Of a DNA stretch of 58,417 nt, positions 16,586-54,918 are shown piece after piece. Source of the DNA: an uncultured Bacteroidales bacterium (GTDB taxonomy: Bacteria; Bacteroidota; Bacteroidia; Bacteroidales; Bacteroidaceae); NCBI GenBank assembly GCA_945787885.1, contig CALZJF010000013.1, positions 1-58,417 of the forward strand, given 5' to 3'. Positions within the stretch are counted from its first letter, which is position 1. Every line of letters starts with the position of its first letter. Both the position numbers and the translations under genes were made by a program. Under the pieces are notes generated by a model. That model did no database searches. It had not been told where the DNA came from and was given only the letters and a program-made list of their open reading frames with translations.

Positions 16586-16766
16586 TGAGTCGTCCCCGTG
16601 TTCCTCCCCGATAGGCTGGGGAATGCGATACTGTATGAGGGCAAACGCGCTGTTGGGTCAGTGTTTGCTGCTGAGTTTGCCTTTGAAATCCTTTTTTTCA
16701 TCCGTTCCAATCTTCTGAAAATCACCGTTTTGGGCAGGCCTGAAGCGTGCTGCCGGTGCGAAAGCC

Positions 16767-16925
16767 CTGAGCTTCGCGCCCCTGCTGCAGGGCTTCTGCT
16801 CTCCGATTGACCATTTTCGCCCCAAAAAGTGATTGTTTCCGCCCCTTAAAGCGGCCATTTTCACCCCTCTATATGATTACTCTGCCCGCTCAAAATGGTC
16901 AGTCTGGGATGAGGTGCGCTGTCGG
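16767..16925 (+). repeat. 22-nt-period element, copy 1
   Basis: Leader 16767-16807 (starts CTGAGCTTC, contains CAGGGCTTCTGC). Six-base boxes follow at 16808 TGACCA, 16830 TGATTG, 16852 CGGCCA, 16874 TGATTA and 16896 TGGTCA, each separated by exactly 16 nt with a C-rich centre such as TTTTCGCCCC. The trailer contains GCGCTGTCGGA. It lies about 100 bp upstream of the calcium-ATPase promoter. Confidence 0.85.
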
Positions 16926-17007
16926 ATGCCTGAGCATGACCGTCGAAAATGGGGCATCGTGCATACAAAAAATCGCAAATACCGCCGTTTCCAACGTTGT
17001 AATTCTC

Positions 17008-19848: not shown

Positions 19849-19905
19849 AGAATCGTCAGTTTAGTTGTCTTTCCATCAGTTTGTCTGCTTATCTTATTCA
19901 TTCAC

Positions 19906-19989
19906 CTGTTTTTCTTATTGGTTTATCTGATTATTTTATTAGCTTAGCTGTTTTTCTTATTAGTTTATCTGTCTTTCTAATCTGTTTAC
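19906..19989 (+). repeat. T-rich 42-nt imperfect tandem duplication
   Basis: A unit beginning CTGTTTTTCTTATT occurs at 19906 and 19948, and the sequence upstream to about 19870 carries further related TTATCTG/TTTGTCTG pieces. It fills the gap between the calcium ATPase stop and the ATG at 19996. Confidence 0.6.
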
Positions 19990-19995
19990 CTGAAT

Positions 19996-20862: not shown

Positions 20863-21051
20863 GGTAGGTTCTATAAATTAGCTTGCGATGTATTTGCGAC
20901 TATCGTGCCGTAGGCTTTTGTTTTTCACGAGGGAGCGTAGCGGGCTACGTGACTGAATGAAAGACAAAAAGATACGGTGCGAGAGGCGTGAAGACATCCA
21001 AGTAAAACAGAAACACTGCCTTATATTGAAAACTAATTTATAGAACTTACC
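20863..21051 (+). mobile_element. MITE copy 2
   Basis: 189 bp, GGTAGGTTCTATAAATTAG to CTAATTTATAGAACTTACC, with the internal CGTAGC-GG-GCTACG hairpin. Flanked by TTTA on both sides (20859-20862 and 21052-21055), an exact 4-bp target duplication. It lies upstream of the YccF gene. Confidence 0.95.
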
Positions 21052-21872: not shown

Positions 21873-21904
21873 GATGAAGTATATGCCCCTCGGAATGCCG
21901 CCGA

Positions 21905-22059
21905 CGGCAGTTTTCCTCCCGGGCTGACCACTTTGAGGGCGCATCGTGATGACTTCTGGGGGCAAAACTGGTCAAATCGAGGGGCGAAAGTCATCACATC
22001 ATGGGGGCAAGATGGCCATTTGGAAAGCAATGGCCCTGAAGTAGGGGCGTGAAGCTCAG
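21905..22059 (-). repeat. 22-nt-period element, copy 2
   Basis: Read on the minus strand: leader 22059-22019 (CTGAGCTTCACGCCCCT...), then boxes at plus coordinates 22013 TGGCCA, 21991 TCATCA, 21969 TGGTCA, 21947 TGATGA and 21925 TGACCA, all exactly 22 nt apart. The trailer contains GCCGTCGG. The leader matches copy 1 at about 32 of 41 positions without gaps. It lies between the terminator at 21872 and the YaaA gene. Confidence 0.85.
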
Positions 22060-22118
22060 TATTCCGCCCCATCTGTGTGCTTCGTTCCTGCCCCACGGCA
22101 GGCGTTTCCGAAGGGCTT

Positions 22119-22896: not shown

Positions 22897-23082
22897 GGTA
22901 AGTTCTATCAATTAGCTTGCGATGTATTTGCGACTATCGTGCCGTAGGTTTTTTTTCACGGGGGAACGTAGCGGGCTACGTGACTGAAAGAAAGACAAAA
23001 ACCTACGGTGCGAGAGGCGTGAAGACATCCAAGCAAGACAGAAACACAGCCTTATATTGAAAACTAATTTATAGAACCTACC
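22897..23082 (+). mobile_element. MITE copy 3
   Basis: 186 bp, three bases shorter than the others near the central hairpin. Flanked by TTGA on both sides (22893-22896 and 23083-23086). The left end faces the yaaA start codon. Confidence 0.95.
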
Positions 23083-24474: not shown

Positions 24475-24663
24475 GGTAGGTTCTATAAATTAGTTTTCAA
24501 TGTAAGGCAGTGTTTTTGTTTTACTTGGATGTCTTCACGCCTCTCGCACCGTATCTTTTTGTCTTTCATTCAGTCACGTAGCCCGCTACGCTCCCTCGTG
24601 AAAAACAAAAACCTACGGCACGATAGTCGCAAATACATCGCAAGCTAATTTATAGAACCTACC
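24475..24663 (-). mobile_element. MITE copy 4
   Basis: 189 bp, inverted relative to copies 2, 3, 5 and 6. Exact TTAA duplication (24471-24474 and 24664-24667). It sits between the HD gene stop and 9 bp before the phosphatase ATG. Confidence 0.95.
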
Positions 24664-25275: not shown

Positions 25276-25464
25276 GGTAGGGTCTATCAATTAGCTTGCG
25301 ATGTATTTGCGACTATCGTGCCGTAGGTGTTTGTTTTTCACGAGGGAGCGTAGCGGGCTACGTGACCGAATGAAAGACAAAAAGATACGGTGCGAGAGGC
25401 GTGAAGACATCCAAGTAAAACAGAAACACTGCCTTACATTGAAAACTAATTTATAGAACCTACC
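25276..25464 (+). mobile_element. MITE copy 5
   Basis: 189 bp, flanked by TAAA on both sides (25272-25275 and 25465-25468). It ends 17 bp before the VWA gene ATG. The 120 bp between the phosphatase stop and this copy contain nothing I recognise. Confidence 0.95.
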
Positions 25465-31544: not shown

Positions 31545-31610
31545 CTTTCCTGCAAAGCCCTCATCGCTTTCCAGCAAAGCCCTCATCGCTTTCCTGCAAA
31601 GCCCTTATCA
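31545..31610 (+). repeat. Triple 22-nt tandem repeat in the leader
   Basis: Three consecutive units CTTTCCNGCAAAGCCCTYAT plus two bases (31545, 31567, 31589), differing at one to three positions. The array lies in the untranslated leader, 46 bp before the ATG, and is unrelated in sequence to the dispersed 22-nt-period elements. Confidence 0.85.
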
Positions 31611-35082: not shown

Positions 35083-35259
35083 ATGAAAGTATTCCGTAAA
35101 CTTCTGGCACTATTGGGCATAGCCCTTCCATTCAGTTTTGTCTGTCCGGCAGCGTCGTGCTGTATTGTTGCACAACGTTCGGCAGCTTCCGTTTCGCAGT
35201 TGTCAGAAGATGCCGTTAATGTTCAGTGGCTTCAAAATTGCCGTTTCCACGCCGCGTGA
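35083..35259 (+). CDS. Small ORF with signal peptide, possibly truncated
   Basis: 58 codons. The start ATG at 35083 is followed by a clear signal-peptide pattern (KVFRKLLALLGIALPFSFV) and then about 35 polar residues without recognisable features (CPAASCCIVAQRSAAS). The stop lies 10 bp before the first box of 22-nt-period element copy 3. This may be a genuine short secreted protein, or the start of a longer gene cut off by that element. No promoter was seen. Confidence 0.4.
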   Translation: MKVFRKLLALLGIALPFSFVCPAASCCIVAQRSAASVSQLSEDAVNVQWLQNCRFHAA

Positions 35260-35269
35260 CATCGGAAAG

Positions 35270-35364
35270 CGGCCGTTTTCGCCCCTCCATGTGATGACTT
35301 TTGGGGGCGGAAATGATGACTTTTCGGGGCGAAAATGGCCACCGGGGAGGCGGAAGCTCTGACG
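35270..35364 (-). repeat. 22-nt-period element, copy 3
   Basis: On the minus strand: leader from 35364 (TCAGAGCTTCCGCC), then boxes at plus coordinates 35336 TGGCCA, 35314 TGATGA, 35292 TGATGA and 35270 CGGCCG, exactly 22 nt apart. The first and last spacers are reverse complements (TTTTCGCCCC and GGGGCGAAAA), so this copy can fold into a long hairpin. Confidence 0.85.
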
Positions 35365-35422
35365 AAAACAAAAAAAGTGCGCCGGCACAGCCCCATCAGG
35401 GCGTGCCGGCGCACTCTTTTTA

Positions 35423-53749: not shown

Positions 53750-54069
53750 GCTTTTTTCTGTGTTTTTGACGTAAAAATAGATGTTTTGTAGAAAAATTTC
53801 TGCAAAATCTTACAGATTGACACATGCTGCCAGAGACTGTCATTCATGGCTGCTGCCTATTATATATGGTGATATTCAGTGTAAGTCCTGTTCGAGTAGT
53901 GTTTTTCAGACTGATAAGTCACAGGCATCCCTTCATCCAAGGAAGTAAGCGATAGGTTTGCGCATTAACGTCTGTTGGCAAATATGGAGAGGGTAAATGT
54001 TAATTGCCGTTAAATAATTGATTCCAAAACTCCGTTTTAATCTCGAAAAATCCCCATCGTTTCAAAAAT

Positions 54070-54258
54070 GGTAGGTTCTATCAATTAGTTTTCAATGTAA
54101 GGCAGTGTTTCTGTTTTACTTGGATGTCTTCACGCCTCTCGCACCGTATCTTTTTGTCTTTCATTCAGTCACGTAGCCCGCTACGCTCCCTCGTGAAAGA
54201 CAAAAACCTACGGCACGATAGTCGCAAATACATCGCAAGCTAATTGATAGAACCTACC
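54070..54258 (-). mobile_element. MITE copy 7
   Basis: 189 bp, inverted orientation like copy 4. Flanked by AAAAAT on both sides (54064-54069 and 54259-54264), so its duplication reads as 6 bp, or 4 bp plus chance in an A-rich target. No gene begins immediately next to it. Confidence 0.93.
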
Positions 54259-54446
54259 AAAAATTTTTTTACGCTTGCATAGACAGCCGTGCAGAACTGT
54301 TAGAACCGAACTTTGGAAATGCAAATCAACCAATTTTAATCCGCAAAATCCTATAATGCCAGCCTTACCCCTTGTCTTGCTATCTGAAATCCCTGAAAAT
54401 GCCATTTGCGGACAGATGAAACACTGTGTCCCGGAGTGGAGAAACA

Positions 54447-54580
54447 GAGATTCTCGCTTGTCCTGCAGAGCTTCTGCCTTCCAAGTGACCACATTCAGCC
54501 CTCAGAATGGTCACTTCTACCCCTCAAAGTAATCATTCTTGGGCTAAAAATGATTAGTTTGAGGCTAAAAGCACTGTCGG
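54447..54580 (+). repeat. 22-nt-period element, copy 4
   Basis: Leader 54447-54485 (GAGATTCTCGCTTG..., CTGCAGAGCTTCTGCC), boxes at 54486 TGACCA, 54508 TGGTCA, 54530 TAATCA and 54551 TGATTA (steps 22, 22, 21), and trailer GCACTGTCGGA as in copy 1. It is the most diverged copy. The following 54581-54915 shows nothing I recognise. Confidence 0.8.
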
Positions 54581-54918
54581 AAAATCAAAAACAGCCCTCA
54601 AAAAAGGGGAAATGCGGTAAAATGAGCCTTTTTCGAGCCAAGAATGGGGGAGAATGACTGACGAAATGCTCAAAATGCCTGTATATGCCCATTGCATATA
54701 GCAATATTGCGTGTTCGTTTCTCTGTTTTCAGGGGCAAACCGTCATGTTTTTTCTTCTTTTCAAGTGTTAAAGGGTGTTAATAGTCTTGGGCGCGTTGCA
54801 GTGCCGATAGCGAGAGAATAGGATAAGCTCCCTCGTGATGAAACAGCGAGAATGATGCAGAATAAGGAGACGTTGAGCTTTTTTAAGCCAATAATAGCAC
54901 TTAAAGCGTTGATTCTGT

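Follow-up and report, generated by a model that had tools for sequence, protein, structure and literature searches.

A dispersed, probably MITE-like element nearly private to one Bacteroidales genome, with a 22-nt tandem array of boxes that read as decayed TGATCA sites

The stretch of DNA analysed here, 58,417 nucleotides from an uncultured Bacteroidales bacterium (hereafter the window), carries four copies of a dispersed, mostly intergenic element that consists of a leader, about four six-letter boxes spaced at 22 nt and a trailer. The element is present in some 150 copies in its genome and nearly private to it; the consensus of its boxes is TGATCA, GATC is depleted from them, and GATC is avoided in the parts of the genome that were examined. 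On balance, we favour the reading that this is a non-coding, MITE-like and lineage-specific element built around a few GATC sites in tandem, the boxes being decayed forms of TGATCA. The element would have multiplied in one Bacteroidales lineage, probably moved in trans, with a central tandem array built from an ancestral 22-nt unit close to TGATCATTTTCACCCCTCAAAG and usually comprising four boxes. Copies would have settled on either strand, irrespective of the direction of genes, and diverged afterwards, while GATC avoidance would have driven the loss of GATC from the TGATCA boxes, mostly through a single change. The 22-nt spacing would mainly be a remnant of the tandem repeat.

All four window copies were detected with R1, a sequence-only profile derived from an alignment of 24 of the first 30 loci, with the window copies left out (E = 4.7e-26, 5.8e-21, 5.1e-20 and 2.7e-15). 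Since a profile trained on 24 loci outside the window recovers every one of them, they are not chance resemblances, and the four dispersed copies reported by the initial annotation are real. Copy 1 is located on the plus strand at 16710–16990 (profile matches 16710–16884 and 16879–16990), with its leader at 16769–16807 and five boxes at 16808–16901 (16808 TGACCA, 16830 TGATTG, 16852 CGGCCA, 16874 TGATTA, 16896 TGGTCA), all steps being 22 nt. Copies 2 and 3 are on the minus strand, as judged from leader and CCCC. Copy 2, identified by direct reading and a profile match, spans 21901–22113 with five boxes at 21925–22018, again all 22 nt apart (21925 TGACCA, 21947 TGATGA, 21969 TGGTCA, 21991 TCATCA, 22013 TGGCCA). 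Copy 3 (35244–35366) has four boxes at 35270–35341, with 22-nt steps throughout (35270 CGGCCG, 35292 TGATGA, 35314 TGATGA, 35336 TGGCCA), and one of its array units is reversed in the CCCC/GGGG sense. Copy 4, on the plus strand, is in two pieces: a 5' piece at 53991–54068 (profile positions 64–152) is truncated by a near-palindromic 189-bp hairpin repeat of a separate family, foreign to the box element and inserted on the same strand at 54070–54258, and the remainder follows at 54257–54819 (positions 146–718 of 719). Its array, 54486–54556, has steps of 22, 22 and 21 nt (54486 TGACCA, 54508 TGGTCA, 54530 TAATCA, 54551 TGATTA). Read directly, the four copies thus contain 18 boxes and 14 steps, 13 of 22 nt and one of 21 nt, exactly as first claimed. 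Also confirmed were the leader described at that stage and its counterpart, a trailer of the GCTGTCGG type, with the longest copies reaching far beyond them. Most boxes fit the forms then listed, TCATCA and TAATCA being reverse complements of two of them; TGATTG and CGGCCA/CGGCCG fall outside that list. Tandem Repeats Finder, at a score of 30, reported copy 3 alone among the four, missing copies 1, 2 and 4 because their units have diverged.

We then determined the extent of the family in the host genome (2.70 Mb, 91% complete, in 96 contigs of which the window is number 13). With copy 1 as query, BLAST returned 41 places at E ≤ 1, and R1 gave at least 154 matches at E ≤ 1, with 150 of 1025 first-look candidates scored. 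For detailed comparison, 145 loci (30 returned by the R1 genome scan and 115 fetched) together with the window provided 149 best matches, or 148 distinct copies after removal of one duplicate (L183 = L182); second matches at one place, overlapping ones and those on the opposite strand were left out of this count. In standard orientation, reading the CCCC strand, a leader ending in approximately GAGCTTCGCGCCCCTTCTGCAGAGCTTCTGCTTYCCAAG is followed by boxes and spacers and then by a tail of approximately GAGACGAAATGTGCCGTCGGAA. Four units were parsed in 123/148 copies, three in 16, five in eight and six in one. A full-length profile, iterated from seven long copies, has 719 positions; core position 401 is covered by 191/197 matches and the outer parts by 7 to 19, a low coverage that is partly search bias as the copies were collected by their core. 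The 5' flank alone as query found 10 places, eight at known cores (seven copies, by comparison of coordinates) and two without a core. One core is common to subtypes with differing outer parts. At contig ends of this genome (e.g. C82, C12, C37, C29, C59 and C18), copies were seen by eye within a few hundred bases of the end, where near-identical repeats next to them perhaps broke the assembly.

Across 586 boxes, the commonest letters of the columns spell TGATCA, a word found intact in only nine, and TGATCA is also the word closest on average to all boxes (mean Hamming distance 1.41), with 359 of them one step away. Mismatches to the central GATC, from zero to four, were found in 10, 453, 115, 7 and 1 boxes, against 134, 247, 158, 43 and 4 expected from independent columns. 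The 453 single changes were dominated by A2>G (138), C4>T (104), T3>C (67), G1>A (60) and G1>C (55), with C4>G (11), A2>T (11), T3>G (3), T3>A (2) and A2>C (2) being rarer; transitions accounted for 369 of them. These are counts of boxes and not of events: in one subfamily, with steps of 22, 22 and 21 nt, boxes 2 to 4 mostly have their words in common, so many losses were inherited. The vocabulary TGGTCA, TGACCA, TGATTA, TAATCA and TCATCA would arise because GATC is avoided, mostly at one change per box, from ancestors whose boxes, we infer, carried TGATCA intact. In a scan of the profile by 168 four-letter windows, those two with a GATC consensus were at 2 versus 41.9 and 4 versus 36.7 expected (0.05 and 0.11 of expectation), and the next with more than 10 expected was TCGA (0.38). 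The ratio of an AAAG window was lower than that of the GATC windows, but on few cases (0 versus 4.4 expected). Against the decay reading, three spacer windows (CCTA, CTAA and TAAA) were also depleted (0.12–0.20) in the analysis that gave the mismatch counts, which we tentatively ascribe to two alternating spacer forms.

Depletion of GATC was also apparent beyond the element. The window contains 27 GATC against 225 expected from trinucleotides (0.12), and other loci of the genome contain 187 against 1462 (0.13). In portions of 5.6–40 kb each, the ratio was 0.18, 0.39, 0.47 and 0.49 in genomes of the same genus (G262, G004, G055 and G104) and 0.28, 0.60 and 1.03 in genomes of other genera (G205, G045 and G042). 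Two other words were also scarce: CTAG was almost absent (0 versus 103 expected in the window, 9 versus 708 elsewhere in the loci examined), and GGCC was at about half of expectation in both. A full-length copy in G205, a genome of another genus, reads TGGTCA, TGATCT, TGATCA and TGGTCA, with GATC intact in two of four boxes. This is weaker proof of the ancestral state than a copy in a GATC-tolerant host would be, because G205 itself avoids GATC (26 versus 92 expected, 0.28), and both copies in G262, from the same genus as the host, lack GATC, which also argues against the decay reading. The avoidance may be caused by GATC-directed methylation or restriction. According to a survey of prokaryotic GATC avoidance (PMC4687349), hosts with GATC-directed systems underrepresent GATC, which was the case in 38/42 instances with methyl-directed systems; the counts there are genome-wide, whereas the loss described here is box by box within one repeat family. 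Three protein families were searched for in the host genome, namely Y1_Tnp, DpnII and MethyltransfD12. MethyltransfD12 gave one match above cut-off (G000:C23:35961–36632), and the protein belongs to the Dam family (TIGR00571 above cut-off; top PDB match 2dpm, the DpnII methylase). The DpnII endonuclease had no Pfam match in this 91% complete genome. On the same contig (L191 827–2202), the predicted methylase gene adjoins a frame of 158 aa that gave a winged-helix match and has, by eye, an HNH-like end, making it a possible candidate for the restriction partner of the methylase.

We further investigated the occurrence of the family in other genomes, using R1 at E = 1e-4 with Infernal's stricter filters. 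Only 2/58 genomes of the genus matched, the host itself and G262 (two copies); G237 and G262 were counted as one genome, being identical in places and sequence coordinates. Across the taxonomic family, 3/399 genomes matched, the third being G205 with its single copy, next to which lies a putative frame that reads like FtsX. Five weak R1 matches (E 0.002–0.009) in G003, G009, G021 (two) and G025 were treated as chance. A pattern scan of GTDB contigs found one contig, from the MAG uncultured Bacteroidales bacterium SRR11551383_bin.10, which from the matching places is taken to be G262. Many copies in one lineage and single copies outside it fit an element that multiplied there.

With regard to mobility, the element is short, non-coding and present in many copies (at least 154 matches), as expected of a MITE. 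Stop-free stretches in the 719-nt consensus reach 106 codons at most, and crude ORFs of 150 aa or more, called by length only, are overlapped by 22/148 cores. At 12 overlapping copies 18 ORFs were listed, of which 10 were scanned; seven had a Pfam match and three had none, and no transposase was among these matches. One subtype has imperfectly inverted ends (TAAGTAGGTAAG...AATTAGTTT), the two end consensuses agreeing at 19/24 letters counted by hand. Both ends scored above the cut-offs in 18/148 copies, with spans of 219–438 nt, and above the control maximum in 12. No convincing target-site duplication was found in these 18 copies of one subtype over the many lengths and offsets tried, the best being 2 bp (0.28 versus 0.09), and the ends are not sharp. 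Orientation to flanking genes was even (++ 29, -- 23, +- 23, -+ 24) among the 99 classifiable of 148 copies, with 27 at edges and 22 over crude ORFs omitted. Taken as a MITE-like element, it is most likely non-autonomous and now decaying, and its copies would have arisen by transposition in trans.

The regular spacing can be read differently. The 22-nt steps could be held in place by a DNA-binding protein that reads the near-palindromic boxes (AAATGRYCATTT) as a phased array of operators, 22 bp being about two turns and setting all boxes on one face of the helix. The refuting condition set by the initial annotation did not arise, as many further copies exist and keep the spacing across the 148 collected: without any spacing penalty, 362/444 steps were 22 nt, 77 were 21 nt and one was 23 nt, while random starts gave a flat spread, and a first count with a penalty on non-22 steps gave nearly the same outcome. 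One subfamily of 50 copies, that mentioned above, nevertheless tolerates a third step of 21 nt, 40 of its chains reading exactly 22, 22, 21. With these 50 copies excluded, the array had 0.013 indel events per substitution (24 events, 97 copies) and the leader 0.015 (9, 58), while the 5' flank had 0.034 (22, 47) and the tail 0.030 (21, 53). Substitutions relative to the consensus were, in the same order, 0.265, 0.262, 0.398 and 0.384. Leader and array are therefore quieter than the outer parts, in favour of operators, but this holds for the array no more than for the box-free, non-repetitive leader, and the constraint on the 22-nt period as such that had been proposed at the outset gains no specific support from this comparison. 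Decay alone does not predict a quiet leader and array, with the caveat that this very part supplied the profile by which the copies were collected, and selection on the core as a whole is possible. A preliminary result, in which array and flanks had equally frequent indels, was discarded as most of its 82 array events were the one deletion common to the 21-nt subfamily. Sequence conservation gave a similarly mixed picture. In 16 copies of the other subfamily (distinct from the 21-nt subfamily), pairwise identity was 0.92 and 0.96 in boxes 2 and 4, above the flat level of the spacers (0.73–0.81), the 5' module (0.76) and the leader (0.75), whereas boxes 1 and 3 were at 0.72 and 0.79; mean mismatch of box 4 was likewise 0.075 versus 0.166 in one subfamily. 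Over the 62 copies with steps of 22, 22 and 22 nt, however, mean mismatch was 0.18–0.245 in boxes and 0.252 in spacers, and boxes are on average conserved no better than spacers, exceptions aside. Together with the lack of orientation to genes, this makes operators a rather unlikely explanation.

A structured RNA or single-strand hairpin unit, with boxes 1 and 2 and boxes 3 and 4 pairing, seems very improbable. Arrays did fold more stably than their dinucleotide-shuffled versions (mean z of -2.45 for the CCCC strand and -1.43 for the other; 74/148 copies used), and among single folds of the window copies 54447–54580 reached z = -4.88 on the minus strand and -2.70 on the plus strand and 35244–35366 reached -2.34 on the plus strand, the remaining five of eight lying between -1.63 and +0.82. 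Palindromic boxes by themselves yield such folds, however, and real copies folded no better than copies with boxes swapped among them (z +0.81, +1.53, +1.00 and -0.04 in four tests; 40 and 62 copies), so the folding option of the initial annotation was dropped. In 36 box-pairing tests |z| was up to 3.32: complementarity of pair 1–2 was, in both groups, slightly above that of shuffled pairs (z about 2), 2–3 was below and 1–4 was below in one group; this apparent pairing of neighbouring boxes was not supported by the swapped-box folding energies. The RNAalifold consensus of 24 copies was -1.53 kcal/mol, Rfam had no match within the window, and the even gene orientation also speaks against an RNA. 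The palindromic cores and the large number of short copies, mostly between genes, would be in keeping with REP/BIME-like repeats mobilised by a Y1 (RAYT) transposase, but units here are in tandem, the element is some 200–700 nt long, and the sole Y1_Tnp match in the 91% complete genome is below the family cut-off and contains a stop, so that we regard this origin as extremely improbable. Iterons close to 22 bp in length occur in several plasmids, GATC being present in some of them, and a single core under differing outer parts could be a decayed replication or mobilisation module of a plasmid or phage, an iteron-like GATC array scattered over the chromosome. We consider this quite improbable, as blastn of window positions 54257–54819 found no match among 72,556 records of plasmids and 50,697 of phages (E = 1e-5) and IMG/VR viral contigs had no match to two patterns.

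A bolder form of the preferred MITE-like reading, unlikely in our view, is that the core was formerly a working iteron-like array, with four methylatable TGATCA sites 22 bp apart on one helical face that served to mobilise or regulate the element, and that nearly 600 such sites were disarmed after it multiplied in a GATC-destroying lineage. If true, the host's own anti-GATC pressure would have erased the control sites of a dispersed element, leaving a site-by-site record of restriction-site loss by a genome. Under the preferred reading itself, since a repeat family offers one site in many copies side by side, the 586 boxes form a parallel record of GATC loss, the unit's remaining letters serving as internal control, from which it can be asked which changes rid a genome of a restriction site, how fast, and whether in each copy or in a master. 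They also carry a warning that odd, discrete words in a repeat motif can reflect avoidance of a short site and not binding specificity.

The initial annotation knew of no described family with this layout. The exact layout was indeed not found in open PMC text, but a near one was: the BrickBuilt MITE of Porphyromonas gingivalis (PMC4596501), the nearest described layout found there. As described in that report, BrickBuilt is also dispersed in a member of the Bacteroidales, strictly intergenic there and mostly so here, has a leader and a tail around a head-to-tail array whose period is close to two helical turns, occurs in partial copies, and is confined to one species and close kin. It differs in its unit (23 nt versus 22 nt here, its 23-nt sequence being set apart by length only), its number of repeats (1 to 22.8, versus four units in 123/148 copies) and its copy number (19 versus some 150), and its terminal repeats, GAGACCTTTGCA and kin, resemble those of IS5-family elements (PMC4596501). 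The element described here does not belong to BrickBuilt: leader and tail do flank its array, but a 23-nt step occurs in 1/444, and each of three BrickBuilt end sequences was perfect in 0/125 copies, with mean scores equal to the control. The recognition site of the Caulobacter methylase CcrM is GANTC, not GATC. The CcrM-associated intergenic repeat (CIR; PMC10969869), a strictly intergenic MITE named after that DNA methylase, is likened to the present element by description alone, apart from sequence and layout.

The near-palindromic repeat that interrupts copy 4 represents a second dispersed family, mostly 189 bp long with ends GGTAGGTTCTATMAATTAGYTT, and the window contains further members at 20863–21051, 22897–23082, 24475–24663 and 25276–25464. 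Its ends occurred 401 times in the genome versus 0 for the reversed pattern, and 36/50 end pairs in the fetched loci span exactly 189 bp. An exact, A+T-rich 4-bp target duplication was found in 70% (9% expected), and the family looks like a young MITE. Other tandem arrays were also observed. Those at window positions 19878–19992 and 31545–31609 have periods of 21 and 22 nt and printed units unlike the box element, and at locus L083 a second array of about 21 nt, of GTCCGTCAGAGACTTGAAAAC type, lies in the tail directly after the box array.
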